Assembly (NCBI RefSeq): GCF_024006985.1
Contig: NZ_JAMXIB010000001.1
Coordinates: 124,001 to 188,000 of the forward strand
Length of the DNA: 64,000 nt
Direction: 5' to 3'
From: Robiginitalea marina
GTDB lineage: Bacteria; Bacteroidota; Bacteroidia; Flavobacteriales; Flavobacteriaceae
A program made the position numbers and the translations under genes. The notes beneath the pieces were generated by a model, which had not been told where the DNA came from, searched no databases, and saw nothing but the letters and a program-made list of their open reading frames with translations. Positions within the stretch are counted from its first letter, which is position 1. The number at the start of each line of letters is the position of its first letter. Positions 1 to 45,015 of the stretch are shown piece after piece.

Positions 1-675
1 CGACCCGAGAAAAATAAACGTATTGTTCAGTACCAGGCTACCCCCAACCCTGAGGTGCGTATGCAGTAGGGAAAGCCCGTAGCAATAGAAAAAGGGCAAG
101 ACCACACACATCCGGTCGTCCCCTGTGAGCTTCAGATAGGAAACAATGGACGCGGTATTCGCGATCAGGTTTCCGTGGGTCAGCATTACCCCTTTGGGCA
201 CCCCGGTGGAGCCGGAGGTAAAGATGATCTCGGCCAGGCGATCTTCCGGGAAAGACGAGTCCAACGACCTTTCCGAATCCCCGCGGGCGGCCACGATGCC
301 GGGGAGATCCGCTTCTGACAGTACCCTGACACCCTCCCCAAAGGCGTACTGGGCCCTTAACCGTTCCTGGCAAAAGACCAGGGGGCTTTCCGTTTGCTCC
401 AGGATGTACTCCAGGTTCCCCTGTTCAATAGTATAATTCAAGGGAACGCAAGCATTACCTGATTTTAGGATGCCCAGGTAGGACGTAATAAAAAAAACCG
501 AATTCGGGCTAACGAGCAGGATGTTCCTGCCCTGCCCGAATTCGTCTTGTAGCCAGGAGGCCAGGGAGTTGCTGTCGCGGTAGAGCTCCGCATAGGACAG
601 AGGCTCCCTACCCCCGACGATGAATTCCTTGTCCAGTCCTTTGGAATGCTCAAAAACGTAATCAAAGAAATTCAT
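1..675 (-). CDS. AMP-forming acyl-CoA/acyl-ACP ligase, partial (N-terminal 225 codons)
   Basis: The N-terminal part of an ANL-superfamily (AMP-binding) ligase runs off the left edge; the C-terminal subdomain is not in the window. The reading frame starts at an ATG at 675 (MNFFDYVFEHSK) and stays open to base 1. Motif A3 of the superfamily, TSGSTGVPKG, is at residues 153-162, followed by a THGNL motif and a PFFYCYGLS stretch typical of acyl-CoA ligases. The family activates a carboxylic acid as acyl-AMP and passes it to CoA or to a phosphopantetheine arm. It starts 9 bases after the stop of the NAD-synthase-like gene, so it is the last visible gene of a unit with an amidotransferase and an acyl carrier protein. 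I infer that it loads that carrier protein with an acyl or amino acid used to decorate the polysaccharide. The substrate cannot be read from the sequence. Confidence 0.85.
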   Translation of the reverse strand, partial: MNFFDYVFEHSKGLDKEFIVGGREPLSYAELYRDSNSLASWLQDEFGQGRNILLVSPNSVFFITSYLGILKSGNACVPLNYTIEQGNLEYILEQTESPLVFCQERLRAQYAFGEGVRVLSEADLPGIVAARGDSERSLDSSFPEDRLAEIIFTSGSTGVPKGVMLTHGNLIANTASIVSYLKLTGDDRMCVVLPFFYCYGLSLLHTHLRVGGSLVLNNTFIFLGS

Positions 676-684
676 GGAGTCCGG

Positions 685-1665
685 TTAAAAGATCGGACGC
701 ATCCGCAGGTATTCCGTGGTCTTTTTCTTCCTTTCGAAACTCTTGTAGATGTTTTCGACCTCCTGGGCGGTGCGGCCCATAACTTCCCCAACTTCCCCGG
801 CATGGTACTGGTTCTCCCATCCGTACCAGATCAGGTCCATCTCGGCGAAGGGCAATTGGTAGAAGAAGTCTTCCTGGGTCTGCTCAGCCGTATAGGTGTC
901 GGTAGTAGGGGTGCGGTCGATGATTTCCTGGGGCACCCCGAGGTGCCGGGCCAGTTGGTAGACCTGGGTTTTATACAAATGCCCGATGGGCATTACATCG
1001 GCCCCGCCATCGCCATATTTGACAAAAAAGCCCTGTTCCACCTCGTGTTTGTTCGGGGTCCCGATCACGGCGTAGTGGAGGCGTTCCGCATGGTAATAAA
1101 GCATGGACATACGGGTGCGTTGCTTGAAATTCGTTGCGGCAACGATTTGCAGGTATTCTTTGGCCGGCAGGAGTTTGCTGATGACCTCCCCATCCGGTTT
1201 GATCACGGTAATGGAAAAGATTGCGGGAATATTTTTACTGATATCCTGCTTGATCTCGATTTTGCTTTTGTCCACTGCAGGGTCAAAATCAGGAACGACC
1301 CGGGCAATGGCTTCGTCCCGGCGGCGATAGCACCCAAAGCCCTCCAGGGCCCCGGTGATGTTCTCCTCCAGGGTTTCCACCCCGAATTTTGCAGCCAGCT
1401 TCAGGGCCAGGGACTTGCTGTCTCCGCTGGAATCCTGTTCCGGCAGCATGATCCCGGTTACCTTCTCCGGGCCAAAGGCTTTCACACTGAGGGCCAGGCA
1501 AACCGAGGAATCGATCCCTCCGCTAATGCCGACGACCCCGCCGCGACGTTGCAGCGTTTGTCCGACATCCTTCCGAAGCTTTTCTGCGATCCGGTCGCAA
1601 ACCGCTTCGATATTCTCGAGATGCAGGATGTCTTTGGAGAAGGGCTTAACTTGTGTAGTATTCAT
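685..1665 (-). CDS. NAD+ synthase-like ATP-dependent amidase (N-type ATP pyrophosphatase)
   Basis: 326 residues. The ATP-pyrophosphatase P-loop SGGIDSS is at residues 48-54, followed by family-like motifs such as GTPNKHE and GDGGADVMPIGHLYKTQV. It has no nitrilase (glutaminase) domain, so it would use free ammonia or ammonia supplied by a partner. Housekeeping NadE converts nicotinate adenine dinucleotide to NAD. This copy lies 12 bases after an asparagine-synthase-like gene and 9 bases before an acyl ligase inside a polysaccharide locus. NadE-like genes beside asnB-like genes recur in exopolysaccharide loci, so it may amidate a polysaccharide precursor instead. It is longer than typical ammonia-dependent NadE (about 250-280 residues), with an extra C-terminal tail rich in Lys/Arg. 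The family call is firm; the substrate is open. Confidence 0.85.
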   Translation of the reverse strand: MNTTQVKPFSKDILHLENIEAVCDRIAEKLRKDVGQTLQRRGGVVGISGGIDSSVCLALSVKAFGPEKVTGIMLPEQDSSGDSKSLALKLAAKFGVETLEENITGALEGFGCYRRRDEAIARVVPDFDPAVDKSKIEIKQDISKNIPAIFSITVIKPDGEVISKLLPAKEYLQIVAATNFKQRTRMSMLYYHAERLHYAVIGTPNKHEVEQGFFVKYGDGGADVMPIGHLYKTQVYQLARHLGVPQEIIDRTPTTDTYTAEQTQEDFFYQLPFAEMDLIWYGWENQYHAGEVGEVMGRTAQEVENIYKSFERKKKTTEYLRMRPIF

Positions 1666-1677
1666 GTTTTTAATTGG

Positions 1678-3669
1678 TTACGTTGATATTACCTTATTTT
1701 CGATTACGATTTTGTCGGGGACCAGCCATTCGGCTGCCTCCAGGGGGATGTTTTTCCGGTTCACAAACTGGTCGTGGAGCATTTGCGTCGAAAGGACTGC
1801 CGTCAGGGCCATGTTGTCGACTTCCGAAATGCGCTGGCCGGTCCGCATCTTATCCAGCAATCGGTCTGTGTGTTCCGGGTTGAAAATACCCGCGGAGCGG
1901 ATTCCCTCCGCATTCAGGTATTCCGGATAGGCCAAGTCCTTTTCCGAAACAAAAACCGACCGGATTGGGGCCCGGTAGGCTTGTTTGGGGCGGTTCAGGA
2001 TGGCGTCGGGCAGGCGGCCCTTCATCAGTTTTTTTAATAAAAATTTCTCGTTCAGGCCATGGAGCTTCAGGTCGGGGTGGAGGCTCATGCACAAGTCGAT
2101 CACCCGGTGGTCCAGGAAGGGGTAGCGCCCCTCTATGGATTGTGCCATCCCCATGCGGTCGCCCTGGGAAGAAAGCAAGTACCCCGACATAAAGAGGTTT
2201 TGTTCCACCCACTGCGCTTTGGCCAGGTAATCGTATCCGTCCAGCTGGCCGCCCACGCTTTTTTCAAGAGCTTCCAAAGGGGAATACCCTGCCGTGGCCT
2301 CCTGGTATTCGGATGTCAGATAATTCCCAATTCGCGACGTATTGTTCCACCGCAGCAAGTGGGAGTAGAGCGGATGGGCCGTATCGCCCAGGCGATAGCC
2401 GAAAAAGAGCTTCAGGGCGTTGTTGTTCGCCGATTTCATCTGCGGCAGGTACGGGTACAGCTTTTTCAGCAACAGGGGCCTCAGGCGCGAATCCGGGTCT
2501 TTGGCCCAGAAATTCCGGATTTTGGCTTCCTTGAAAATGTTGTAACCGCCCAGGAGTTCGTCGGCGCCTTCCCCGGTAATCACCACTTTGATGTTGTGTG
2601 CCCGCACGTTGCCGGCCAGAAGCATCATTGGGGTAGGGGCGGTGCGCAGCAAAGGGGCTTCGCTATGCCATACCACTTTGGCAAAATTTGCAGCGATGTC
2701 TTCGGGGCGGCACTGGATCGCGGCGTGTTCGGTCTGGAAATAGGAAACCGCCAGGTTCTGATAGTCCGATTCATCAAAATCCTTTTCGGAAAACCCGATT
2801 GAAAAGGTCTTTAGGTTGCCCGGGGATATTTTTTTGATGAATGAGGTGGTTACGCTGGAATCGATGCCCCCGCTCAGGTAGGCGGCCACGGGAACGTCTG
2901 CCCGCAGGCGTAGGCGCACCGCATCTTCAAAAACAGCCTCGAAGGCTTCCGCGGCTTCTTCGGCCCGTTGAAACCGATAGGCATCCGGCCTGGTCAGGGG
3001 TGTTTCCCAGAACCTCCGCACGGTAACGCCTTTCGCATTGCAGACAAGATAGTGCCCCGGCGGCAATTCGCGGACCCCTTCGAAGGCCGTATCCGGGCTA
3101 AGGGCCGTCCAGAACGTAAAGTATTGGCGCAGCGCCCGGGGTGATAACTTTAGGTCCAAACCTGGAAATTCCATCAGGGCCTTGATCTCGGAGCCGAACA
3201 CGAAGGATTGCCCCACTTCCGCGTAAAACAGGGGGCGGATGCCCACCCGGTCGCGGGCCAGGAACAGTTCCCGCGAGACCCGGTCCCAGATGGCGATGGC
3301 AAATTGCCCGTTTAACCGGCTCAGGAAGTCGGGCCCATATTCTTCATAGAGGTGGACAATAACTTCCGTATCTGAATGCGTGCGAAAACGGTGGCCTTTC
3401 TTTTCCAGGTCCGCCTTTAGCTCGAGGTAGTTGAAGATCTCACCATTAAAGACGATCCAGTACCGGCCATCTTCATTGGAGAGCGGCATGGTCCCGGAAC
3501 TCAGGTCGATGATGCTCAGGCGCACGCTGCCCAGCCCGAGGTGCTCATCCAGGTAGATGCCGCTTTCGTCCGGGCCCCGATGGCGGATCCGGGTTAGCAT
3601 CCTGCACAACACCTCGCTCTGGGCTTCTGTGGAAGCCTGAAACTGATAAAACCCGGCTATTCCGCACAT
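1678..3669 (-). CDS. asnB: Asparagine synthase-like glutamine amidotransferase
   Basis: 663 residues with both AsnB domains. The N-terminal class II glutaminase domain begins MCGIAGF, so Cys2 becomes the nucleophile, and it carries RHRGPDESG and FNGEIFNY motifs. The synthase domain has the P-loop SGGIDSS at residues 266-272 and the later motif GEGADELLGGY. The family moves ammonia from glutamine to an adenylated carboxylate. In polysaccharide loci such enzymes can amidate hexuronic acids (for example WbpS in Pseudomonas O6), and this locus encodes several uronic acid pathways. It lies 22 bases after the acyl carrier protein gene and 12 bases before the NAD-synthase-like gene, so the three are probably co-transcribed. 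It could instead amidate the acid carried on the ACP. The symbol names the family, not a proven asparagine synthetase role. Confidence 0.87.
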   Translation of the reverse strand: MCGIAGFYQFQASTEAQSEVLCRMLTRIRHRGPDESGIYLDEHLGLGSVRLSIIDLSSGTMPLSNEDGRYWIVFNGEIFNYLELKADLEKKGHRFRTHSDTEVIVHLYEEYGPDFLSRLNGQFAIAIWDRVSRELFLARDRVGIRPLFYAEVGQSFVFGSEIKALMEFPGLDLKLSPRALRQYFTFWTALSPDTAFEGVRELPPGHYLVCNAKGVTVRRFWETPLTRPDAYRFQRAEEAAEAFEAVFEDAVRLRLRADVPVAAYLSGGIDSSVTTSFIKKISPGNLKTFSIGFSEKDFDESDYQNLAVSYFQTEHAAIQCRPEDIAANFAKVVWHSEAPLLRTAPTPMMLLAGNVRAHNIKVVITGEGADELLGGYNIFKEAKIRNFWAKDPDSRLRPLLLKKLYPYLPQMKSANNNALKLFFGYRLGDTAHPLYSHLLRWNNTSRIGNYLTSEYQEATAGYSPLEALEKSVGGQLDGYDYLAKAQWVEQNLFMSGYLLSSQGDRMGMAQSIEGRYPFLDHRVIDLCMSLHPDLKLHGLNEKFLLKKLMKGRLPDAILNRPKQAYRAPIRSVFVSEKDLAYPEYLNAEGIRSAGIFNPEHTDRLLDKMRTGQRISEVDNMALTAVLSTQMLHDQFVNRKNIPLEAAEWLVPDKIVIENKVIST

Positions 3670-3691
3670 GGATTATAAAGGTCGGTGACAG

Positions 3692-3940
3692 TTACCTTTT
3701 GCTTTCCAGGAAAGCAACAATGCTGTTAATGGACTCGAAATTCTCTACCACCAGTTCCTCGTCGTGGGTTTCCACCCCAAATTCTTCCTTGAGGAACTCA
3801 ATGAGAAACAACAGTCCCATGGAGTCGAGCAGGCCGGTTTCGAAGATCAGGGTATCATCCTCGATTTGGGATACATTGGCCAGCGTATTTTTGATAATGT
3901 ACTCTTTTACTTTGTTTTTGGTGTCAACAGCAGTGATCAT
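3692..3940 (-). CDS. Acyl carrier protein
   Basis: 82 residues, acidic, with the phosphopantetheine attachment motif LLDSMGLL; the modified serine is Ser40. Length and helix pattern fit a stand-alone ACP. It is the first gene of a minus-strand unit ACP, amidotransferase, NAD-synthase-like protein, acyl ligase, with gaps of 22, 12 and 9 bases. A dedicated ACP beside an AMP-forming ligase suggests an acid tethered to the carrier for transfer to a sugar by one of the acyltransferases encoded just upstream (4,227-8,625). It is unlikely to be the fatty-acid-synthesis ACP, which normally sits beside fabF. The 286 bases before it contain no gene I can support. Confidence 0.9.
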   Translation of the reverse strand: MITAVDTKNKVKEYIIKNTLANVSQIEDDTLIFETGLLDSMGLLFLIEFLKEEFGVETHDEELVVENFESINSIVAFLESKR

Positions 3941-4226
3941 TGTGCGATGAATTAAATTATGTGGTTAAGTCAGAATTTTAAATCTTTATTGTGGGGTAAA
4001 ACTACTTCTTAAAATTTTCCCAAAGGCTGGATTCCTGCGGATTTCGTTGAAATTGGATTTTTTTACGTTATGCGGTACCCGGGCCGGATTTAGAACAATA
4101 GAACGGGTTTTTGATAGAAAAAGTTGAACGATCTAAAAAGCCTTTTGGCAGAACCTTTCGGGCGGCTAACCCCTATGATGTTGGATTCCTACGACAAATC
4201 CCATTGTTTCCACATGCCAACCGGGT

Positions 4227-4826
4227 TTATGATCTTTCCCCTGTGGCCTTGAGAAAGTCGTCTTTCTTAGCTAGCAGGTTCCGCGATCTGGGGGCCACCC
4301 GTTTTAATGGATTGCCAAAATACAGATTCCATTCACTTAGGCTAGTAGATACCAAAGATAAGGCACCCACGGCCACCCCGTCCCCAATGGTTAAATTGGG
4401 CAAGACAATGCTGTTGGCCCCGATGATCACGTGTTCCCCAATCAGGACTTTCCCCGCTTTCAATTTTTTGTATTTGGAAGGGATGGTGGGGTTAGTTAAA
4501 GAATTTCCCGAATAATCATCTGTTTTGCTGTAGATTTTAACCCCCTGGGAAAGGCCACTAAAGTCTTTTATTTCAATGCCGTCATTGGCCAGCAGGTGAC
4601 AAAAAGCGCCGATGTGGATATATGTCCCAAGTTTTAATTCCCCCCCCGTGGCAATGATGGAGCAGAAGGCATCAATGATTACATTGTCCCCAATACTGAT
4701 GTTATGCAGCCCTGCTATGGTGCAATTTTTGGCAATCCTGACATTCCTGCCTACTGCTTTGAACCCGAAAGTACGCAGTTCGGTTTCACAATAATACCCT
4801 GTATTGAATGGGTTGTCGTCCGACAT
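4227..4826 (-). CDS. Left-handed beta-helix (hexapeptide) acyltransferase
   Basis: 199 residues. Imperfect hexapeptide repeats (for example IGDNVIIDAFCSIIATGG and IGEHVIIGANSIVLPNLTIGDGVAVGA) show the left-handed beta-helix of the WbbJ/CatB/NodL acetyltransferase family. The C-terminal LYFGNPLKRV resembles the usual GNPAK closing motif. Family members move an acetyl or other acyl group from CoA (rarely from ACP) to a sugar hydroxyl or amino group. It lacks the N-terminal Rossmann-like part of PglD. Its place between the ACP unit and three GNAT/FemAB-type genes points to acylation of the capsule repeat unit. Whether the donor is CoA or the neighbouring ACP cannot be told. Confidence 0.85.
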   Translation of the reverse strand: MSDDNPFNTGYYCETELRTFGFKAVGRNVRIAKNCTIAGLHNISIGDNVIIDAFCSIIATGGELKLGTYIHIGAFCHLLANDGIEIKDFSGLSQGVKIYSKTDDYSGNSLTNPTIPSKYKKLKAGKVLIGEHVIIGANSIVLPNLTIGDGVAVGALSLVSTSLSEWNLYFGNPLKRVAPRSRNLLAKKDDFLKATGERS

Positions 4827-5124
4827 GAATTTTACTTATATTTAATTGTGATTCGAAAGGATTCAAAAATACCCCAGCCGATTCATGTACTGAGAATATT
4901 CTGATGAAAACCCCATAAAAACGATTTACTACTGTTCGCATCTTTCTTCTGGCAGATAGGGCTTTACCATTTCCGATATCCAAGAAGATAGAAAAACGAT
5001 ATTTCTTATGACATCTCTCGGCGGAAAAAGGTCCGAACCTACACTGGTGAAGAGAAGGGACGGGCAAAAAGCTGGGGGGGTCCCCGAATTTATGAAAATT
5101 ATTTTATAGTTGAAGCTTCTCCAC
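4827..5124. other. Intergenic stretch, nothing recognised
   Basis: 298 bases between the hexapeptide acyltransferase start and the end of the first GNAT gene. A 93-codon minus-strand frame here (start about 5,067) has no recognisable domain and runs into the acyltransferase gene in another frame, so I do not call it. No clear terminator hairpin or consensus promoter was found. Confidence 0.5.
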
Positions 5125-6291
5125 TTAAGGGATAATCCTGAAGATTTTATCCGATTTCATCCCTTTAACCAAATAGTGCTGTGGGGACTTTTTTAACCGA
5201 AATACGTTGAGGCATTTTTCGGTATCCTCCGTTTCAAAGAGATACTCATAGATTGCCCTTCTGAGGACGGTAAATTCCGGAAGCCGGTAATCTATTTCAG
5301 CCCCTGCCTCCTGGCCCTCCTCAGGATCGTAGATACCCTCAATCTTACCGGCTGTAGAGAGCCCGGAAGGTTTTATCAGGTACGTGTCCCTGAATTGGTG
5401 ATACCGGTTAATGATTCCTTTTTCCCTAAGCCATTGCCTGAGCCACAGAATAAAAAGGAAGGCGTGGGTCGTTAAGGCAGCGCGCAGAGAGTTCCTTTGA
5501 TAAAAAATGTGATAATTGTAGTTATACACGCTATTGCACCACCTGCGTTTCCAATAAAAATCACCCTTGGAAAAGCTTATGGACGCGACTCCATTTTCGA
5601 GGCACCAGGTTATTTGATTCATTAAGTTGATGTATCCGGTGTTGAATTTGGAATAACAGATGTCATAGGTTCGGATGAACTGGAAGAGTACATTGTAAAG
5701 ATGGAAATTAAGGCAAATGTCAATTGGGATCCCCCGGTCAAAAATGACATAGAACGAAGCTTTTTTTTCCAGGATCATGGGGTAAACCTGCTCGTAGTAC
5801 CAATGTTTGGTTTTCAGGTTGCGATTGTTTTTTATTCCTTTTTCGTGGGACCGGATTTCCAGAAGGCGGTAAAATTCCTCAAAAACAAAATCGTATTCCT
5901 GGCGGGTCATCTCCCCAAAATACATGCGATAAGATATCTCAAAACAAGATTCCAGTTTTTTTACTGCCCGCCTGAGCTTATACCGGCTACTTTTGCCAAA
6001 GCGGGCCGCAAGATAGCCATCCAGGCTTTCCACATCCTTAAAATCTATGCGGAACCCCGGGTATTGCTTTATTTTTTTGAACCCAATGGATTTTGGCAAT
6101 TCTTTTAAGCCAACCTGGAAATAGTCCGGGATATCTTCGTAAACCATCGTGGGTCCTTTTAAATCAAGGGTACCCTTTTCCCCGACTACCGGCATTGATT
6201 TCTCGAATGATCCCACCTGGTAGGAAAGGGAATCATAGAATACAGGTAATTCCTGGAGGGTGTAAACCGAGAAAACAAAGTTGTTTTGCAA
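5125..6291 (-). CDS. GNAT-fold acyltransferase, CelD/BcsL (Acetyltransf_6) type, paralogue 1
   Basis: 388 residues. The middle part matches the CelD/BcsL-type GNAT fold: a basic RYKLRRAVKKLE segment (about residue 100), a helical EFYRLLEIR region, then a beta core with ISFSKGDFYWKRRW near residue 245, where the paralogues read FDFSKGHYDYKSDW and MDLRWGDFEHKKKL. It is clearly paralogous to the next gene (6,319-7,578) and to a distant gene at 44,134-45,015. The family transfers acyl groups, and related FemAB-fold proteins transfer amino acids; several occur in exopolysaccharide loci. It follows its paralogue by 27 bases, so it is probably the last gene of a FemAB-GNAT-GNAT operon. Substrate unknown. 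Confidence 0.75.
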   Translation of the reverse strand: MQNNFVFSVYTLQELPVFYDSLSYQVGSFEKSMPVVGEKGTLDLKGPTMVYEDIPDYFQVGLKELPKSIGFKKIKQYPGFRIDFKDVESLDGYLAARFGKSSRYKLRRAVKKLESCFEISYRMYFGEMTRQEYDFVFEEFYRLLEIRSHEKGIKNNRNLKTKHWYYEQVYPMILEKKASFYVIFDRGIPIDICLNFHLYNVLFQFIRTYDICYSKFNTGYINLMNQITWCLENGVASISFSKGDFYWKRRWCNSVYNYNYHIFYQRNSLRAALTTHAFLFILWLRQWLREKGIINRYHQFRDTYLIKPSGLSTAGKIEGIYDPEEGQEAGAEIDYRLPEFTVLRRAIYEYLFETEDTEKCLNVFRLKKSPQHYLVKGMKSDKIFRIIP

Positions 6292-6318
6292 AACTTAGAG
6301 GAGGTTAACGGTTAAAAA

Positions 6319-7578
6319 TCACAAAAAGCAAAGCTTTTGGATGGTGGATTGGCCCTGAAAGATGTATTTCTCTCCGGCCCGATCTTTGAACACCGTTACC
6401 CCAGAGAGGTGTTCCTGTGTTAGGAACAGAAAGGAATTCAGATGTTTTTTCAGGTGGCGATACTTTGCATCATTCATATCAATTTTACCCCATTGATCCA
6501 ACCCCGGCATAGATTCCAGTTCCGTTAGCAAGGGTTCCTTTCCCTCCGCCCTGGGAGCTGTTCGATGATATCCCCTGAGCTTAAAGAGGAGTTTGTTATA
6601 GCGTTCATTCAAATTCCTGTCCCTGAGAAACTGTTTCAGTGTTAAAAATTCCTTCAGCAACCAGGCGGTCGTACGGGATTTCAGGGATTTTTTGTTGTAG
6701 AAAATATGGTATTCAAACCTGTAGGGATGGGTCGCCCAATCGCTTTTATAGTCGTAATGCCCTTTTGAAAAATCAAAGATTTTAATGCCGTTTTGGTAGC
6801 ACCACTCCAGCTGTTTCATAATGGCAATGGTGCCAACATGAAATTTGCTGAAATCAGTATCGAAAACGGTAATGGCATTGAACATTACCCCGGAACCGAA
6901 ATAGTTTAGCGTAATGGAGATCGGTTCATCGTGGGCATAAATTACAAAAAGGCAAGCCTGGTTGCTTTGGATCATCTCATAAGCGACCTCCTGGTAAAAA
7001 GCCCATTCTTCCGCTTCCAGGTTATTGTTTCGGATTTGTTTTTCCCCAAAGCGTTTTTCCAGCAACTCCCGGAATTTAAGGAATAGTTGGTCGTAAGCCT
7101 CCCTTTCGATGGGCCCGCAGTGCATAGCGTAGGAAACCTCAAAACTTTGCTCCAAGCGCTTGGCATATTTCCGCAACTTATAGCGGGTATTTCGGCTGAA
7201 GAAGTTTTTGAAGTAGGCGTCATAATCCGGATAGGACTCCAGAGAAATCAGGTATCCCGGATACTGGCGTACCCTGTGCAAACCCACATTGGCTGGCAAT
7301 GGGCTCAGCTTCTGGGCAAAATATTCGGGGACATCATAAATCAAAAATACCTCGTCATCCATTGGCTTGCCGGTGCCATCGACACCAGACAGGGTATAGT
7401 TCATCCCTTTGGTCAGGTTTCGGCCGAGATTCAGGTAGTAGGGGAACTTGGGGTGCCTGTAAAAGGAGATACCGCTAAGAAACCCGGTATCAATAACGGG
7501 TTCGTTTCCCACAAAATGCGCAACAAACTTTTGCCTGAATTCTGGGGAGGTGAAGGGGTTGCTGTGAATAGTGACCAT
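6319..7578 (-). CDS. GNAT-fold acyltransferase, CelD/BcsL (Acetyltransf_6) type, paralogue 2
   Basis: 419 residues, aligned by eye with the preceding entry: RQYPGY versus KQYPGF, TRYKLRKYAKRLEQSFEVSY versus SRYKLRRAVKKLESCFEISY, and YRFEYHIFYNKKSL versus YNYNYHIFYQRNSL. That is a duplicated pair followed by divergence. The C-terminal 130 residues after the GNAT core are less conserved. The gene follows the FemAB-like gene by 6 bases and precedes paralogue 1 by 27 bases. Keeping two copies side by side suggests two different positions, or two different acyl groups, on the repeat unit; that is inference. Confidence 0.75.
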   Translation of the reverse strand: MVTIHSNPFTSPEFRQKFVAHFVGNEPVIDTGFLSGISFYRHPKFPYYLNLGRNLTKGMNYTLSGVDGTGKPMDDEVFLIYDVPEYFAQKLSPLPANVGLHRVRQYPGYLISLESYPDYDAYFKNFFSRNTRYKLRKYAKRLEQSFEVSYAMHCGPIEREAYDQLFLKFRELLEKRFGEKQIRNNNLEAEEWAFYQEVAYEMIQSNQACLFVIYAHDEPISITLNYFGSGVMFNAITVFDTDFSKFHVGTIAIMKQLEWCYQNGIKIFDFSKGHYDYKSDWATHPYRFEYHIFYNKKSLKSRTTAWLLKEFLTLKQFLRDRNLNERYNKLLFKLRGYHRTAPRAEGKEPLLTELESMPGLDQWGKIDMNDAKYRHLKKHLNSFLFLTQEHLSGVTVFKDRAGEKYIFQGQSTIQKLCFL

Positions 7579-7584
7579 GGGGAA

Positions 7585-8625
7585 TCAGGATTTGAACCGA
7601 TATAAGGGGAAATACCCGCTTTCCTCAAAATGCGCCGGATCTTCGATTTCTGATTTTCTTTGTTCACAAAGGTCCAGGTAAACTGCTTCATTTACAATAT
7701 ACTTCCAGACAGAAAAGCTCCTGAAGTCTTTTGAGAAGGAAGATTTGAAGTAAAACAGCGAATCTTCCTGGCTCCCCAGGCCCCCCCCCAGATTAAAAAA
7801 GCGGTAACCTTCCTCCATGGCCCTAATCCGGGTTTCATCAATCAAAAGCCTTAAGGGTGTTAAATTAAGGTATTCACTCCGGGTTCCCGAGAGGTGGTAT
7901 TGGACGATATCCCTGGTTTTGATCATCAGTGCACCGGAAATGATTTCATCCGTATCCCGCAATTTTGCAATCATAAGGTCGCACTGAAATTCTCTACTTT
8001 CCATTAAACCAAAAAAATAGGCCTCTTCAAAAAAATAATCCGGCTCTGCCTCCACCCGTTTCATGGTCTCATAATATAGGTCGATAAACCGGGAAACTTC
8101 CCCTCCGGAACTCACCGATACCACGTGACAGAGGCGCCTTAGGCGGTTTACATACCTCTTGGTGGTTTTCGAATAAGCCAGCCATTGATCTTCTTCGTTC
8201 TTTGTAAGGTCTATATTGACAATGGGTCCCAGGTGGTGGATTTCTCCGATCCTATCCAAAACAGTATCCTGAAAGGATATAAACGGATTTAGGCGAGAAA
8301 ACACACTGATAATCTTGCAAGCCTCCAACAACTCCAGCAAGGCCTCCCTGAAAGTACTGTTGTCAAAATGGGCATCTAGGTTTCGCGAAAGGGGCCCGGC
8401 ATACCCATATACACTGGTGAGGTCAAAATACCCGGTTTGGGCAATACGGCGCTTCAGGAAGGGCAGAGCGATGGCCGTATTTCCCTGCTCAAAGTAAATT
8501 AACAGGGGGGTTTCCCCTTCTTTTTTGGAAATTTTGTGGTAATCCCAGGTATGGTAGAAATCATAAAGGCTAAAGCCCTGAATAATTTGGCGCCAGGTAA
8601 TTTCGTCCTCAATTACTTTTAACAT
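7585..8625 (-). CDS. FemAB-like acyl/aminoacyl transferase (GNAT superfamily)
   Basis: 346 residues. The C-terminal half has the pattern of FemAB/lipid II:glycine glycyltransferase-like proteins: ISGALMIKTRDIVQYHLSGT, then RAMEEGYRFFNLGGGLG and DSLFYFKSSFSKDFRSF. The genuine FemX/A/B enzymes add amino acids from aminoacyl-tRNA to the peptidoglycan peptide. Single-domain relatives in capsule loci are often named FemAB-like without a known substrate. It starts 9 bases after the sugar transferase stop and ends 6 bases before GNAT paralogue 2, so these are one transcription unit. It could attach an amino acid or the ACP-bound acyl group to an amino sugar. Confidence 0.75.
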   Translation of the reverse strand: MLKVIEDEITWRQIIQGFSLYDFYHTWDYHKISKKEGETPLLIYFEQGNTAIALPFLKRRIAQTGYFDLTSVYGYAGPLSRNLDAHFDNSTFREALLELLEACKIISVFSRLNPFISFQDTVLDRIGEIHHLGPIVNIDLTKNEEDQWLAYSKTTKRYVNRLRRLCHVVSVSSGGEVSRFIDLYYETMKRVEAEPDYFFEEAYFFGLMESREFQCDLMIAKLRDTDEIISGALMIKTRDIVQYHLSGTRSEYLNLTPLRLLIDETRIRAMEEGYRFFNLGGGLGSQEDSLFYFKSSFSKDFRSFSVWKYIVNEAVYLDLCEQRKSEIEDPAHFEESGYFPLYRFKS

Positions 8626-8634
8626 AGGGCTACA

Positions 8635-9243
8635 TTAATCTGGAGTTCCCGTGAACATGGGCATCGTGTGCGCTTCACTGGCAGAAACCCCTTCCCGTTT
8701 AAATACTTTTTCCACGGTTTTCCACAAAATTTTAAAGTCTGTAACAAAACTGACATGATCCACATACCAAACATCGAGCTCAAACTTTTCTTCCCAACTG
8801 ATCGCATTGCGACCGTTGACCTGGGCCCATCCCGTGATCCCCGGTTTCACCTCGTGCCGGCGCGCCTGTTCTTGGTTATAAAGCGGCAAATAGGCAACCA
8901 GCAAAGGCCTTGGCCCTACCATTGACATGTCACCCACAAACACATTGACCAACTGCATCAACTCATCGAGGGAATAATTTCTGACAAATCCTCCGATTTT
9001 AGTAATGCGCTGCATATCGGGCAATAAATTCCCGTCTGCATCTTTTTTATCGTTCATGGTTTTGAACTTAATAATGGTAAAAATCTTTCCATCTTTACCG
9101 GGCCGTTTTTGCAGGAAAAACGGTTTACCCCCATTTGCAATGCTCAACAACAGGGTAATCCCCAGGATTAATGGGGAAAAGAGGACAAGTAACACCAGGG
9201 AGGCAAAGAGGTCGCCTATGCGTTTTACAATACTTATGTACAT
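8635..9243 (-). CDS. Initiating undecaprenyl-phosphate sugar-1-phosphate transferase (PglC-like)
   Basis: 202 residues, the size of minimal monotopic phosphoglycosyl transferases such as PglC. One N-terminal membrane segment (residues about 9-32, [19 protein letters not shown]) is followed by the catalytic core: [21 protein letters not shown], the DE pair in [21 protein letters not shown] and [14 protein letters not shown]. It starts each repeat unit by moving a sugar phosphate from UDP-sugar to the lipid carrier on the cytoplasmic face. A PglC-like enzyme fits the PglE/PglF-like genes at 28.3-31.4 kb, suggesting that a diacetamido-trideoxy hexose is the first sugar. It leads the run that continues into the FemAB and GNAT genes. 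Confidence 0.9.
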
Positions 9244-12057: not shown

Positions 12058-13068
12058 ATGATTGCAATACATTTTGAACAGGGAAACAATTTTAGTGTTC
12101 GGTGGAAAGAATACTGCGAGGAGAAAAACTTGCCTTTCAAAGTGGTATCCTGTTACGATAGCGATATTTTGGATCAATTAGTTGGCTGTACCTGTTTGTT
12201 GTGGAACGTCAATAACTTTAATTATAAAGATCAGATAATGTCAAAATATTTGGTTAAATCTCTTGAAAACATAGGTATTCAAGTTTTTCCAAATTACTCC
12301 ACTTTATGGCACTATGACGATAAAGTAGCGCAGAAGTATTTGTTAGAATCAATTGGGGCGCCCTTAGTTAAGTCATTTGTCTTTTATGATAAAAAGACAG
12401 CATTAAAATGGATAGAAACCACCACTTTTCCGAAGGTATTTAAATTGCGTAAGGGTTCCGGTTCTAAGAATGTTGTTCTATGTAAAAATAAAACTCATGC
12501 TAGAAAATTAGCTAATACGGCCTTTGGCAAAGGGTTCCCAATGTTGGACATGGTTTCTATTCTTAAAGAAAGACACAGAAAATACAAACTGGGCAAAGAG
12601 AGTTTACTCGGTTTAATAAAAGGAGCGATCAGGATTTTTATAGGTACCCCGTTTAAAAATATGTCAACAAGAGAAAAGGGATACCTTTACTTTCAAGAGT
12701 TCATGCCTGATAACAAATACGATCAACGTATCGTAATAATTGGACAAAAAGCTTTTGCTTTAAAAAGAATGGTAAGGGATAATGATTTTAGAGCTTCTGG
12801 TAGTGGACTTTTTTATTATGATAAGGAATTGTTCGACGAACGATGTCTCAAGATCGCTTTTGAGGTTAGCAATAAGCTCAATTTCCAAAGTATGGCTTAT
12901 GACTTCGTTTATGACCAAAATAATGAACCAAAAATCATTGAGATTTCTTTTGCTTTTAACCCCAAGGCGTATTTGGATTGTCCTGGTTACTGGGATGCCG
13001 ATTTAAATTGGCATCATGATAAGGTTTCTTTTCAAGACTGGATGATAGAAGGGCTCAATTGTTCATAA
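12058..13068 (+). CDS. ATP-grasp ligase-like protein
   Basis: 336 residues. The ATP-grasp fold is suggested by YDDKVAQKYLLESIGAPLV (hinge and lid start), FPKVFKLRKGSGSKNVVL (phosphate-binding loop) and, near the C-terminus, IIEISFAFNPKAY, where the metal-binding Glu and Asn are expected. The family joins a carboxylate to an amine or thiol through an acyl phosphate. Inside a polysaccharide locus it could add an amino acid or similar group to a uronic acid or amino sugar. The gene is much richer in AT than those at 0-9 kb, as are the next three genes. It precedes the polymerase gene by 4 bases. Substrate unknown. Confidence 0.75.
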   Translation: MIAIHFEQGNNFSVRWKEYCEEKNLPFKVVSCYDSDILDQLVGCTCLLWNVNNFNYKDQIMSKYLVKSLENIGIQVFPNYSTLWHYDDKVAQKYLLESIGAPLVKSFVFYDKKTALKWIETTTFPKVFKLRKGSGSKNVVLCKNKTHARKLANTAFGKGFPMLDMVSILKERHRKYKLGKESLLGLIKGAIRIFIGTPFKNMSTREKGYLYFQEFMPDNKYDQRIVIIGQKAFALKRMVRDNDFRASGSGLFYYDKELFDERCLKIAFEVSNKLNFQSMAYDFVYDQNNEPKIIEISFAFNPKAYLDCPGYWDADLNWHHDKVSFQDWMIEGLNCS

Positions 13069-28302: not shown

Positions 28303-29436
28303 TTGGAAACGCTTACCCGGGATAAAATCTGGCTCTCCTCCCCCCACATGGGAGGTACAGAGCAGGAGTATGTTCGAGAGGCCTTTGACAGCAACTGGAT
28401 TGCCCCCCTGGGCCCCAATGTCAACGGCTTTGAAAAAGCGATTGAAACCTTTGTCGGGGGAGATATTCATGCGGCCTGCCTGAGTTCCGGTACCGCGGCC
28501 CTGCACCTGGCCCTGGAACTCCTGGGGGTAGGCCCCGGCGATGAAGTCCTCTGCCAGTCCTTTACTTTTTCCGCCTCGGCCAACCCCATTGCTTATCTGG
28601 GGGCTACGCCGGTATTTGTGGATAGCGAACCGGAAACCTGGAATATTTCGCCTGCGCTCTTGGAAGAGGCCATTCAAACCCGGCTGAAAACGGGTAAAAA
28701 GCCGAAAGCCATCATCGCCGTGCATTTATATGGCATGCCTTACCAGCATTCCGCGATCCGTGAGATTGCTGAAAAGTATAGCATTCCCGTGGTTGAAGAC
28801 AGCGCCGAGGCCCTTGGAAGCACTTATAAGGGGCAATCTTGTGGTACCCTGGGCGATATCGGGATCCTTTCCTTTAACGGGAACAAAATCATCACCACCT
28901 CCGGGGGTGGGGCCTTGCTGACCCGCCATGCCGAATGGAAGGAAAAGGCCGTTTTCCTTTCCACCCAGGCCAGGGATGTGGCCCCGCATTACCAGCATTC
29001 GCACATCGGGTATAATTACCGGATGAGCAACGTACTGGCCGGTATCGGCCGGGGGCAGATGGAGGTTTTGCCTGAGCGGGTTGCCGCCCGCCGGAGGAAT
29101 TTTGAGGTTTATCAAAGCGAATTGTCAGGGGTGCCTGGCCTTGAATTTCTGCCCGAACCTGCAGGGGCCTTCAGCAACCGCTGGCTGACCACGGTGCTGA
29201 CCCCCTCCTTTGAAACCCGGGAGCGTATCCGCCTGGCCCTGGAGGAAGAAAACATCGAATCGCGGCCGCTGTGGAAACCGATGCACCTGCAGCCTGTTTT
29301 TTCGGCCACCCCTGCCTATGTCAATGGGGTTTCAGAAGACCTGTTTTCCCGTGGGCTCTGTTTGCCCAGCGGATCGAACCTGACGGAAACCGACTTGGAA
29401 CGCGTTATGGGAATTATTAAAAAGACTTTGCTATGA
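28303..29436 (+). CDS. DegT/DnrJ/EryC1-family sugar aminotransferase (PglE-like)
   Basis: 377 residues from a TTG start (METLTRDKIWLSSPHMGG); the only upstream ATG nearby (28,292) is out of frame and stops at once. The PLP-enzyme core is clear: SSGTAALHLALELLG, EDSAEALGSTY, and the Schiff-base lysine Lys195 in SFNGNKIITTSGGG. The family aminates keto-sugar nucleotides. Its stop overlaps the start of the PglF-like 4,6-dehydratase (ATGA), so the pair probably makes UDP-4-amino-4,6-dideoxy-GlcNAc from UDP-GlcNAc. This is the precursor of bacillosamine and of Qui2NAc4N-type sugars. Confidence 0.88.
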   Translation: METLTRDKIWLSSPHMGGTEQEYVREAFDSNWIAPLGPNVNGFEKAIETFVGGDIHAACLSSGTAALHLALELLGVGPGDEVLCQSFTFSASANPIAYLGATPVFVDSEPETWNISPALLEEAIQTRLKTGKKPKAIIAVHLYGMPYQHSAIREIAEKYSIPVVEDSAEALGSTYKGQSCGTLGDIGILSFNGNKIITTSGGGALLTRHAEWKEKAVFLSTQARDVAPHYQHSHIGYNYRMSNVLAGIGRGQMEVLPERVAARRRNFEVYQSELSGVPGLEFLPEPAGAFSNRWLTTVLTPSFETRERIRLALEEENIESRPLWKPMHLQPVFSATPAYVNGVSEDLFSRGLCLPSGSNLTETDLERVMGIIKKTLL

Positions 29437-31391
29437 TCCAGAGTTATATTGCGAACACAGCAACGCGATTTGCCAGTAAATGGCTGGTATTGGCCATCGA
29501 CCTGGTGACCTTCGGGGTCACCTTTGTCCTGGCCTATTTGATCCGGTATAACCTTACCTTCAATTTCGATGTCTCCCAATTCTGGTACCAAATCCCGTTT
29601 ATGCTGGGAGTGGGCGTCCTGGCCTTCCTGATCACCGGGTCGTATAAAGGGGTGGTCCGCCATACGGGGGTGCGCGACGTTTATAATATTTTTAACGCCA
29701 TCTGCCTGGCCAGTATTTTGACCATTTTGGTGATTCTGGCCAACCGGACCTGGGCGGTGGTGCCGGAATTCAAAATCCCCCTTTCCATTATCATTATTCA
29801 TAGCCTGATGGCCTTTTTGGGGCTAACAGCATCCCGCTATGTGTTTAAGGTGCTGTACAACAACCTGGTATCCAAGGATATTCGTTACTACAAGAACGTG
29901 CTCATCTATGGGGCAGGTGAGTCCGGCATCCTAACCTACAACGCACTTACAAGCAGTACAAAAAGCAACATGCAGGTACTGGGCTATATCGATGAAGACC
30001 GGCAGAAGGTGGGTAAACAGATCAACGGGGTACCTGTGTTCGGACCCGAGGTGCTGAGCGATGGTTTTTTGAGAAGTAAGAAGATTTCAGAGATCATTTT
30101 TTCCATCCATAATATTGAGCAGAAAAAGCTGCGCAAGCTGGTGGAGGGCATGGTCGATTTCCCGGTGCGGGTCAAGATTGTCCCCCCGGTAGACGACTGG
30201 ATTAATGGGGAGCTTCGGGTTTCCCAGATCAAACCCGTGCAGATCGAGGACCTGCTCGACCGGGTACCCATTTCCATCACCAACAAAAAGGTGAGCCGTG
30301 AACTGGCCGGGAAAAGCATTTTGGTAACTGGTGGGGCTGGCTCCATTGGGAGTGAGTTGGTGCGGCAAATCTGCAAGTACGAGTACAAATCGCTGGTGAT
30401 CCTCGACCAGGCCGAATCGGCCCTCTATGACCTGCAGCAGGAATTGAAGCAGAATGGCTTGCACAACTTTATCCCCGTGGTGGGCGATGTGCGCGACAAG
30501 AACCGCTGCAACTTGCTGTTCCAGGAGTACAAACCCGACGTGGTTTTCCATGCGGCTGCTTACAAGCATGTGCCCCTGATGGAGTGCAACCCCTATGAGG
30601 CCATCAAGATCAATGTGGCTGGTACCAAGGTGATGGCCGACCTGGCTTTGGAGCACAAGGTGGACAAATTTGTCTTCGTATCCACGGACAAAGCGGTGAA
30701 CCCCACCAATATTATGGGGGCCACCAAGCGTATTGCGGAAATGTATATCAGCTGCCTGCAGAAGGCAGGGGGCACCAAATACATTACTACCCGATTTGGG
30801 AACGTGCTGGGCTCCAACGGCTCGGTGATCCCCCTCTTCCGTAAGCAGATCGAAAAGGGTGGCCCGCTTACCCTCACACATAAAGACATCACCCGCTTTT
30901 TCATGACCATCCCCGAAGCGTCACAGCTAGTGCTGGAAGCCGGTGCCATGGGCGAGGGGGGGGAGATCTTTATATTTGATATGGGAGAATCGGTGCGGAT
31001 CTTCGACCTGGCCAAGAACATGATCCGCCTCTCGGGACTGCGTTACCCCGAAGACATCGACATCAAGATCACGGGCCTGCGCCCCGGCGAGAAACTCTAT
31101 GAGGAACTCCTGGCCAATGGGGAGAATACGCTCCCGACTTACCACAAGAAAATTTTGATCAGCAAGGTGCGCGAGCTCGACTACCTGGAGGTCCGTTCCC
31201 TGATCGATGAGCTTTGCGTCACCAACATGTTCTTTAATTCCGATACGGTAAAGCTTATGAAGCAGATTGTACCGGAATTCGTATCGAATAATTCGGAGTA
31301 CAGCCGGTTGGACGACCCCAAAAAGACAGGGGAAACTCCCCCGCAGGCGCCGAAGGCCCCACAAAAGGAAGCCGATAAAATTGTATCTTGA
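29433..31391 (+). CDS. Membrane-bound NDP-sugar 4,6-dehydratase (PglF/WbpM/CapD-like)
   Basis: 652 residues, the usual length of the large membrane-bound class. Four hydrophobic N-terminal segments (to about residue 140) are followed by a first Rossmann-like region (LIYGAGESGI) and the SDR catalytic domain, with NAD motif GGAGSIGSELV near residue 300 and STDKAVNPTNIMGATKR near residue 417, characteristic of PglF/WbpM. It converts UDP-GlcNAc to UDP-4-keto-6-deoxy-GlcNAc, the substrate of the preceding aminotransferase. The gene overlaps that aminotransferase by 4 bases and precedes the export genes by 30 bases. Confidence 0.92.
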   Translation: MIQSYIANTATRFASKWLVLAIDLVTFGVTFVLAYLIRYNLTFNFDVSQFWYQIPFMLGVGVLAFLITGSYKGVVRHTGVRDVYNIFNAICLASILTILVILANRTWAVVPEFKIPLSIIIIHSLMAFLGLTASRYVFKVLYNNLVSKDIRYYKNVLIYGAGESGILTYNALTSSTKSNMQVLGYIDEDRQKVGKQINGVPVFGPEVLSDGFLRSKKISEIIFSIHNIEQKKLRKLVEGMVDFPVRVKIVPPVDDWINGELRVSQIKPVQIEDLLDRVPISITNKKVSRELAGKSILVTGGAGSIGSELVRQICKYEYKSLVILDQAESALYDLQQELKQNGLHNFIPVVGDVRDKNRCNLLFQEYKPDVVFHAAAYKHVPLMECNPYEAIKINVAGTKVMADLALEHKVDKFVFVSTDKAVNPTNIMGATKRIAEMYISCLQKAGGTKYITTRFGNVLGSNGSVIPLFRKQIEKGGPLTLTHKDITRFFMTIPEASQLVLEAGAMGEGGEIFIFDMGESVRIFDLAKNMIRLSGLRYPEDIDIKITGLRPGEKLYEELLANGENTLPTYHKKILISKVRELDYLEVRSLIDELCVTNMFFNSDTVKLMKQIVPEFVSNNSEYSRLDDPKKTGETPPQAPKAPQKEADKIVS

Positions 31392-44133: not shown

Positions 44134-45015
44134 TTATTGCCTCTGTTGTTTTATTTTAAGAAGGAATGCAAGGACCTGCGCCCTCATACGGGCAATGATG
44201 TTGCCCTTTCGATATATTATTTGGTTTTTGAAGGTATAGACCCGATTAGCGAGCTTCTTTTTGTGCTCAAAATCGCCCCATCTCAAATCCATTTTGTCAT
44301 ATCCATGTTCAAAACACCACTGTATTTTTTTAACCAGCATTAATTTCCCCAAGCCATAGGACGCCATATCGTTTTTGAAGGTGGTAACTGCACTATCCAG
44401 AACGGTTCCTTTATGGTAATTCAGGGCGAGACTGATGGGGACCCCATTGCCATACATTACAAATAATGACGCCTTTTTAATAAGGATCAAATCGAATACC
44501 GAGTCCCTGTAAAAATCCCACCTTTGCAGGGCAGTGTGTTCGTCTGCATTTTCTGCGAAACGATCCCTGATCATTTCCTGGAAAGCATCCATTAAACGCT
44601 GATAGGATTTTTTTTCAATCTCACCGAAAAAGGCCTCAAAGGTTACGACGTGCTTTTCATCTAACCTCCTGAAGTCCCTGTTGATTTTTTTTAAGGCCCT
44701 CGATCCAAGCTGCTTTTTCAAATATTGGTCAGGGCTTTCAAAACCTGCAAAATCCAATAAATATCCAGATCTGTAGCATAGGGTAATTGCAGAATAGCCT
44801 TCCCTGAGTAATAGTTGACCAAAATCAAGGTAAGGGGGTATGCAGAAAATAAGACCAGTTCCCCATGGCTTTACCGAATGGAAGTCTTTATAGACGATTT
44901 GACCTGAGTCCTCAGCCTTGTCTGGCACTATGTAATATGAAGGGACCTGATCCTCTTCGAAGTAGGTAAAGAAGAAATTATCGCTTTTAAAACCCAATAA
45001 TCGCTTTAAAAACAT
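44134..45015 (-). CDS. GNAT-fold acyltransferase, CelD/BcsL type, paralogue 3 (outside the capsule locus)
   Basis: 293 residues, homologous by eye to the capsule-locus proteins at 5,125 and 6,319: LYRSGYLLDF-type strand, SRALKKINRDFRRLDEKHVV, ASLFVMYGNGVPISLALNYH, and WCFEHGYDKMDLRWGDFEHK, where the paralogues read WCLENGVASISFSKGDFYWK. It is shorter at both ends. AT content is higher than in flanking mnmE and dnaN. It stands alone, 10 kb beyond the end of the capsule genes, so it was either duplicated out of the locus or gained separately. Acyl donor and acceptor unknown. Confidence 0.72.
   Translation of the reverse strand: MFLKRLLGFKSDNFFFTYFEEDQVPSYYIVPDKAEDSGQIVYKDFHSVKPWGTGLIFCIPPYLDFGQLLLREGYSAITLCYRSGYLLDFAGFESPDQYLKKQLGSRALKKINRDFRRLDEKHVVTFEAFFGEIEKKSYQRLMDAFQEMIRDRFAENADEHTALQRWDFYRDSVFDLILIKKASLFVMYGNGVPISLALNYHKGTVLDSAVTTFKNDMASYGLGKLMLVKKIQWCFEHGYDKMDLRWGDFEHKKKLANRVYTFKNQIIYRKGNIIARMRAQVLAFLLKIKQQRQ

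Follow-up and report, generated by a model that had tools for sequence, protein, structure and literature searches.

A portable four-gene cassette of a ligase, a carrier protein and two predicted amidating enzymes in a polysaccharide locus of Robiginitalea marina

The locus described here raises the question of whether a ligase, a free-standing acyl carrier protein (ACP) and two predicted amidating enzymes of Robiginitalea marina form a pathway, and how many of the adjoining genes belong to it. The window analysed is the whole stretch of 64,000 nucleotides (G000:C11:124001-188000; genome size 3.25 Mb). The original prediction had joined eight of its genes into a single module of a capsule locus, encoding the ligase (LigA), a NadE-like protein, an AsnB-like glutamine amidotransferase, the carrier protein (ACP1), a hexapeptide-repeat transferase, two GNAT proteins (GNAT1 and GNAT2) and a FemAB-like protein. 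Matches to Pfam and TIGR profiles confirmed each of the eight genes, all on the minus strand and close to the predicted positions (table 1), and the CelD/BcsL-type label given to the GNAT proteins was borne out by an Acetyltransf_6 domain in each.

The genes for LigA, the NadE-like protein, the AsnB-like protein and ACP1 are separated by gaps of 9, 12 and 22 bases and form one unit, as had been proposed. The gap between ACP1 and the hexapeptide gene is 286 bases, indicating that the tight unit consists of the first four genes only. A simple search for the pattern TAnnTTTG found no Bacteroidota-type promoter on the minus strand between 3901 and 4300. The G+C content at third codon positions (GC3) was 0.67–0.71 for the ligase, NadE-like and AsnB-like genes and 0.60 for ACP1, and 0.52–0.57 across the block from the hexapeptide gene to the first glycosyltransferase; because of this shift, the eight genes look like two blocks with different histories. 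Values of 0.28–0.35 were obtained for Wzx, Wzy, one glycosyltransferase and an ATP-grasp gene.

Among the best 80 loci of a search with the NadE-like protein, the first 28 (at least 43% identity) were taken as cassette-type, and the other 52, mainly Flavobacteriales by title, served as ordinary-NadE controls. Together with 11 loci from a second genome set, 39 NadE-like loci were examined. Loci were selected on the NadE gene only. The four profiles drew on loci in which they were then counted, and the same profiles were applied to the controls. At distances of up to 6 kb from the NadE-like gene, profile searches of these other loci found the ligase in 38/39, the ACP in 34/39, the AsnB in 32/39 and all three partners in 29/39, and each partner in 0/52 controls, including L079, which scored 178 bits on the cassette NadE profile and thus lies between both groups. 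The ligase match of L038 is a 20-bit, 126-base remnant, the AsnB of L037 is in pieces and the ligase of L045 is in two. L171, on the same contig as L052, was excluded from the counts, and L068 and L070 are near copies.

At stricter scores all four genes were found in 27 loci, on one strand in 25 of them, and in ten gene orders; the span was 4.7–5.0 kb in 19 of the 25 one-strand cassettes. By their labels, the complete loci belong to six phyla (Bacteroidota, Pseudomonadota, Chloroflexota, Myxococcota, Ignavibacteriota and Acidobacteriota), and the NadE-like gene with the ligase was found in four more (Zixiibacteriota, Planctomycetota, Verrucomicrobiota and Lentisphaerota). That the genes keep company despite shuffled order points to a functional link, and not just to common ancestry of the segment. 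Pairwise distances of NadE, AsnB and LigA were also correlated (r 0.80–0.88 over 28 rows; highest permuted value 0.36), part of which is shared species history. The four core genes are thus a real portable cassette across distantly related bacteria. One record, L070, labelled Bacillus subtilis SK6B4, carries a cassette of alphaproteobacterial type that resembles the one in Brucellaceae L068, and was left out of the phylum count as probable assembly contamination. An apparent NadE-AsnB fusion in L042 (a 955-aa open reading frame) was dropped, the profile ranges being those of adjacent separate genes.

The single eight-gene module did not hold up, since only the core four co-occur as a rule. For the neighbours a set of 43 loci was used, to which four loci of the window's own family had been added and from which one same-contig copy had been dropped. 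The window's GNAT family was found near the cassette in 0/43 loci (profile search, with a pool lacking a positive control), and of 149 genomes of the class only its own held a match to GNAT2 at E <= 1e-15. FemAB-like proteins lay near the cassette in 4/43 (L038, L039, L040 and L172, with seeds taken from L039 and L172), and hexapeptide proteins in 11/43 (three of them seed loci), compared with 1/52 controls. A first FemAB/GNAT profile, which gave 0/39, was too weak, as Pfam showed two such proteins in L039, and the search was repeated with other seeds.

The proposed link to capsules stood in part. Glycan genes lie within 9 kb in 20/39 cassette loci compared with 2/52 controls, both counts being lower bounds because the profiles came from few seeds and many loci were short. 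Wzc-like genes were found in 14/43 loci (controls 1/52), and Wza-like genes in 8/43 (controls 0/52). The link is not obligatory. On pSymB of Sinorhizobium meliloti the cassette (order asnB - ACP - ligase - nadE) lies some 2.5 kb away from minCDE. In L168, L169 and L171, from the window's own family, the genes seen beside the cassette included no homologue (E <= 1e-3) of the glycan genes of the window. On pMESCI01 of Mesorhizobium ciceri the cassette lies among regulatory and unrelated genes, with one GT2 gene 2.8 kb away. The proposal thus shrinks to four genes, while its setting broadens from capsules to a portable cassette. Among plasmids, 117 records carried a NadE-like relative (E <= 1e-40); grouped by first word, these were Sinorhizobium (76), Azospirillum (12), Ensifer (9), Mesorhizobium (8), Shinella (8), Rhizobium (2), Roseateles (1) and Nitratireductor (1). 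Four of these records were opened, and both of those with a gene table held all four genes. Phages gave no NadE-like match at E <= 1e-30. No description of the four-gene set was found in one library of open-licence papers, judged by title and start of abstract.

The NadE-like protein scored 440.4 bits on NF002048 (PRK00876; curated cut-off 313). Scores above this cut-off were obtained in 12/296 genomes of the phylum (its own included), 6/299 of the family and 1/10 of the genus, a patchy distribution. In a tree, these proteins form a clade distinct from ordinary NadE (support 100/100). All 39 cassette proteins retain SGGxDS. The lid differs: a PSA-type pattern was read in 44/52 ordinary loci and in 0/39 cassette loci, and a TQE-E/D-F lid in 35/39 cassette loci and in 0/52 ordinary loci, where ordinary sequences were read over profile-match ranges only (median 147 aa) and 28 of the cassette loci had been retrieved with two patterns, one of them the TQE stretch. 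The window's own protein lacks the ordinary PSAxL / TDE lid motif, and a further NadE-type gene (87.6 bits, 312-aa frame) is present in its genome. Azospirillum NadE1 and NadE2, described as glutamine-dependent in the available part of the source (PMC7196632), were set aside by that description as not of this family. The control genome Methanosarcina acetivorans also scored above the NF002048 cut-off, so the subfamily may, by this score, reach archaea.

An Asp at the A4 position is typical of alpha-amino-acid adenylation domains. LigA has Cys at this position, and the 38 ligase rows showed C 15, D 10, S 5, N 2, I 2, V 2, T 1 and one gap; with such variation among cassette ligases, the substrate is not predictable from the ligase. 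The AsnB-like translation has an MCG start and SGGIDSS. The MCG start is shared by 26/32 AsnB profile matches, the others starting later or being cut. In oxytetracycline biosynthesis OxyD, an AsnB-type enzyme, supplies an amide-bearing acyl starter, and may by analogy serve as a precedent.

In the reading preferred here, which we put at about even chances, the cassette is a portable four-gene pathway in which LigA loads an acid on ACP1, the AsnB-like and NadE-like proteins amidate it and a variable transferase hands it on. LigA would adenylate a small carboxylic acid and attach it as a thioester to the ACP1 phosphopantetheine arm. The AsnB-like enzyme (with ammonia from glutamine) and the NadE-like enzyme (with ammonia), both of the PP-loop ATP pyrophosphatase type, would convert carboxyl groups to carboxamides; amidation could come before or after loading, and the second step might turn an amide into an amidine. 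A separate, genome-specific transferase (hexapeptide, FemAB/GNAT or NRPS (non-ribosomal peptide synthetase) condensation domain) would move the group to its acceptor. The window cassette sits inside a Wzx/Wzy-type polysaccharide locus, so the acceptor here would most likely be an amino sugar of the repeat unit. The cassette itself, its conservation, the separate clade of NadE-like proteins, the catalytic motifs and the gene neighbourhood are observed, and from these we infer the loading, the amidation, the order of steps and the acceptor. Activation, holding on the ACP, amidation and transfer had all been proposed in the original prediction, and fit the protein families. Co-occurrence of the full eight genes was not supported. 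In L071 the NadE and AsnB genes lie between an AMP-ligase-like protein and a condensation-adenylation-carrier protein (module domains from Pfam on this one L071 protein), an arrangement that supports work on carrier-bound acids. L064 resembles L071, except that its 1101-aa protein is encoded on the opposite strand about 2.4 kb away, and L037 encodes an NRPS-like protein and a putative phosphopantetheinyl transferase, read from its sequence.

Several observations weigh against this pathway. About half of the cassette loci, S. meliloti among them, have no visible glycan gene nearby, so the acceptor need not be a sugar. Ten loci are short of a partner: L053, L068, L077 and L078 reach a contig end or come close to one, the stretch of L065 ends within the ligase, and L036, L056, L058, L064 and L071 lie away from any contig end. 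Contig ends do not explain the missing AsnB of L036, L056, L058 and L065, or the missing separate ACP of L058, L064 and L071. The NadE-like protein retains the NadE fold, the PP-loop and much NadE sequence, and an NAD-type activity is possible from this likeness. Lastly, the window holds UDP-uronic-acid genes and its AsnB-like protein gives a score with the WbpS-type uronamide synthase family, so this enzyme might act on a sugar.

This last point leads to a somewhat unlikely alternative, in which the AsnB-like protein is a WbpS-type uronamide synthase acting on a uronic acid of the polysaccharide, the FemAB and GNAT proteins add amino acids from aminoacyl-tRNA as FemX does, the ligase, ACP and NadE-like protein serve a separate purpose, and the neighbouring genes encode separate decorations. 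TIGR03108, the best model for the AsnB-like protein after the general TIGR01536, is described as the WbpS family in the available part of a study of Porphyromonas gingivalis, where an N-seryl-glucuronamide is made through WbpS and the TIGR03019-related VimA (PMC7468200); the window's FemAB-like protein matches TIGR03019 weakly (28.6 bits). TviB- and TviC-like uronic acid enzymes are present in the window, and a low-confidence model of GNAT2 resembles FemX, MprF and Sbb17. Against this, the AsnB gene keeps the company of ligase, ACP and NadE-like genes in loci without visible glycan genes, and L038 and L039 hold, besides the cassette AsnB, a second and different AsnB-type protein (31–32% identical to the window's).

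It is unlikely that the cassette makes a free small molecule (a signal, an osmolyte or an envelope metabolite) that is released as an amide, the polysaccharide setting being incidental. The positions on pSymB near minCDE and on pMESCI01 between regulatory and unrelated genes, the same-family cassettes of L168, L169 and L171 apart from glycan genes and the NRPS-like neighbours of L037, L064 and L071 would all suit such a product, but the enrichment of glycan, Wzc-like and Wza-like genes near the cassette argues against it. That the NadE-like protein is a mere second NAD synthetase in accidental company is very improbable, given that it is linked to the ligase in ten phyla and, in shuffled order, to the full set of three partners in six, that its lid motif is altered and that the host has a separate NadE-type gene.

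Returning to the four-gene pathway, a further proposal is possible, at somewhat less than even chances: that the NF002048 clade is no NAD synthetase but a new amide- or amidine-forming enzyme acting in series with its AsnB-like partner on a carrier-tethered acid, and that the four genes constitute an undescribed pathway, complete in six of the phyla found here and present in the model symbiont S. meliloti, which provides a common polar building block for stand-alone uses, for polysaccharides and for NRPS-like assembly. Should the cassette yield a carrier-bound amide or amidine, one more way of making the unusual acyl groups of bacterial surface sugars would be known. In automatic annotation two of the four genes are called 'NAD(+) synthase' and 'asparagine synthase', and under such housekeeping names a conserved pathway goes unnoticed. 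As the cassette is present in the genetically tractable S. meliloti, its product is directly testable.

For the transfer step, the hexapeptide gene lies directly before the ACP in L037, L038, L039 and L065, which makes its product a candidate acyl-ACP transferase. LpxA-type enzymes are hexapeptide acyl-ACP transferases, and by this analogy the candidate is a fair one. GNAT1 is 35% identical to GNAT2 over residues 77-411, and both are paralogues of GNAT3, encoded beyond the window edge, and of a protein encoded at 44134-45015. This fourth paralogue, about 36 kb away, adjoins a 383-aa protein without a Pfam match and a DNA polymerase III beta gene. Among the best Foldseek matches of the low-confidence GNAT2 model were FemX (E 2e-8, template modelling (TM) score 0.35, mean pLDDT, a model-confidence score, 60.8; GNAT2 only), aminoacyl-phosphatidylglycerol synthases, MprF and Sbb17; the list also held uncharacterised proteins and a tandem GNAT of clavulanic acid synthesis. 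FemX and MprF draw amino acids from aminoacyl-tRNA. Judging from the model, the GNAT proteins may add amino acids without any ACP, or may take them from a second ligase and carrier (LigB and ACP2, table 1). The closest match to the window is L172, in which a 73% identical sugar transferase lies directly before the cassette, followed by a 48% identical FemAB-like protein with one opposite-strand 230-aa gene before it.

Table 1. Genes of the window and of the adjoining stretch. Positions are those of the window unless prefixed; L003:11984-17057 equals G000:C11:117984-123057.
Feature	Position	Strand	Evidence
LigA, AMP-forming acyl/aminoacyl ligase (AMP-binding)	1..675	minus	PF00501 E 7e-45; 225/487 aa within window
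LigA, whole gene (487 aa)	L003:17212-18675		PF00501 264.5 bits; AMP-binding_C
NadE-like protein (NAD_synthase; NF002048/PRK00876 subfamily)	685..1665	minus	
AsnB-like glutamine amidotransferase	1678..3669	minus	PF13537 (GATase_7), PF00733 (Asn_synthase); TIGR03108 423 bits
ACP1, carrier protein (PP-binding)	3692..3940	minus	PF00550 22.8 bits, cut-off 20.8; serine in LLDSMG
Hexapeptide-repeat transferase (Hexapep), candidate acyl-ACP transferase	4227..4826	minus	PF00132
GNAT1 (Acetyltransf_6)	5125..6291	minus	PF13480 26.9 bits, cut-off 22
GNAT2 (Acetyltransf_6)	6319..7578	minus	PF13480 65.6 bits, cut-off 22
FemAB-like transferase (FemAB, Acetyltransf_6)	7585..8625	minus	PF02388, PF13480
Sugar-phosphate transferase, likely first step of repeat unit	8635..9243	minus	PF02397
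DegT aminotransferase and PglF-like dehydratase	28303..31391	plus	PF01041, PF02719
Second carrier set (LigB, ACP2, KAS III, PglD-like, GNAT3)	L003:11984-17057		
LigB, DltA-like ligase	beyond edge	same strand	506 aa; TIGR01733 330.5 bits, cut-off 317.4
ACP2, second carrier protein	beyond edge	same strand	77 aa
KAS III-like protein	beyond edge	same strand	355 aa
NeuD/PglD-like transferase	beyond edge	same strand	235 aa
GNAT3	beyond edge	same strand	334 aa

The locus extends about 6 kb past the window edge on the same strand (C11:117984-124675), including the rest of LigA, and this part encodes a second carrier-protein set. GC3 was 0.42–0.51 for NeuD, ACP2, the ketoacyl-ACP synthase (KAS) and LigB. 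LigB retains the Asp of amino acid adenylation domains, where LigA has Cys. An ACP, a ketoacyl synthase and a PglD-like transferase lie together at L003:13146-15475, which is the wfp-type combination. No ketoacyl-ACP reductase was found among the six L003 proteins and the annotated window proteins up to position 16890, smaller frames not being profiled. Homologues of the KAS III-like protein (E <= 1e-40) were present in 11/148 genomes of the phylum, its own included, and one stretch from each of the other ten (L149-L158) was compared. A PglD-like gene and a sugar transferase like that of the window were found in seven of these (L149, L150, L151, L153, L154, L156 and L157); L152 has no such sugar transferase, and L155 and L158 have neither gene. 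No LigB homologue was seen in the ten stretches. The DegT and PglF-like pair of the window is probably a supply of UDP-4-amino sugar, and a DegT protein 64–66% identical to the window's is also encoded in the KAS/PglD loci L150, L156 and L157.

Other proteins of the window and of the cassette loci were recorded. A RimK-like ATP-grasp protein (12058-13068) has 44–49% identical relatives in two polysaccharide loci, L151 and L153, with a fragment in L150; another relative, 43% identical, comes immediately after the ligase of the L053 cassette. Thrombospondin type 3 repeats and an InlB B-repeat domain were found in a 955-aa protein (17489-20356) encoded next to the polysaccharide genes. Five further families lie near the cassette, counted with seeds from some of the counted loci: a methylmalonyl-CoA-epimerase-like VOC protein in 6/43 loci (one at 22 bits only), among them L038 (11002-11427), L039, L054, L061 and L069; a protein with a GHQSVG motif in the members read, in five loci (L059, where it is weakly GDSL-like, L060, L062, L069 and L170); a PrmC-like methyltransferase in 6/43 (controls 1/52); and proteins of about 380 aa and of 223-230 aa in 8/43 and 5/43.

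Four known systems resemble the locus. The accessory genes of XrtA/PEP-CTERM exopolysaccharide loci encode a ligase (TIGR03098), an amidotransferase (TIGR03108), a decarboxylase (TIGR03099) and a FemAB protein (TIGR03019), and so share families with the window's ligase, AsnB-like and FemAB-like proteins. The cassette of L061 lies near a TIGR03099-like decarboxylase (359.1 bits, cut-off 478.45), and the ligase of L059 scored 482.5 bits (cut-off 592.35). In the window and the adjoining stretch the scores fell below the cut-offs, at 288.6 (LigA) and 206.3 bits (LigB) against 592.35, 423 bits (AsnB-like) against 816.9, and 28.6 bits (FemAB-like) against 260.35, and no XrtA model was among the families matched by the NadE-like protein. 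In Dlt D-alanylation a discrete DltA ligase and a discrete DltC carrier feed a cell-surface polymer. The cassette shares the discrete AMP ligase and carrier protein; we know of no amidating enzymes in Dlt, and LigB (291.1 bits, DltA cut-off 559.85) and ACP2 (24.7 bits, DltC cut-off 52.35) scored below its models.

The Wbp/Vim system of P. gingivalis decorates a lipopolysaccharide sugar with an AsnB-type amidotransferase and a FemAB/GNAT-type aminoacyl transferase, both of which are types found in the window; the available part of its description holds no ligase, ACP or NadE-like protein, and places the amide on the sugar (PMC7468200). The dihydroxyhexanoyl group that wfpC-wfpG make for the O-polysaccharide of Flavobacterium psychrophilum had been offered as an analogy in the original prediction. 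It is a poorer fit to the gene set for which it was offered. The AsnB/NadE cassette has no counterpart in the available part of the description (PMC6519341). The analogy is apt for the second set beyond the edge, which differs in having a DltA-like ligase and no reductase seen beside KAS III. The dedicated ACP, ketoacyl synthase and PglD-like N-acyltransferase reported there with PglE-, PglF- and PglC-like genes (PMC6519341, as far as available) have the same layout as the second set and as L150, L156 and L157.

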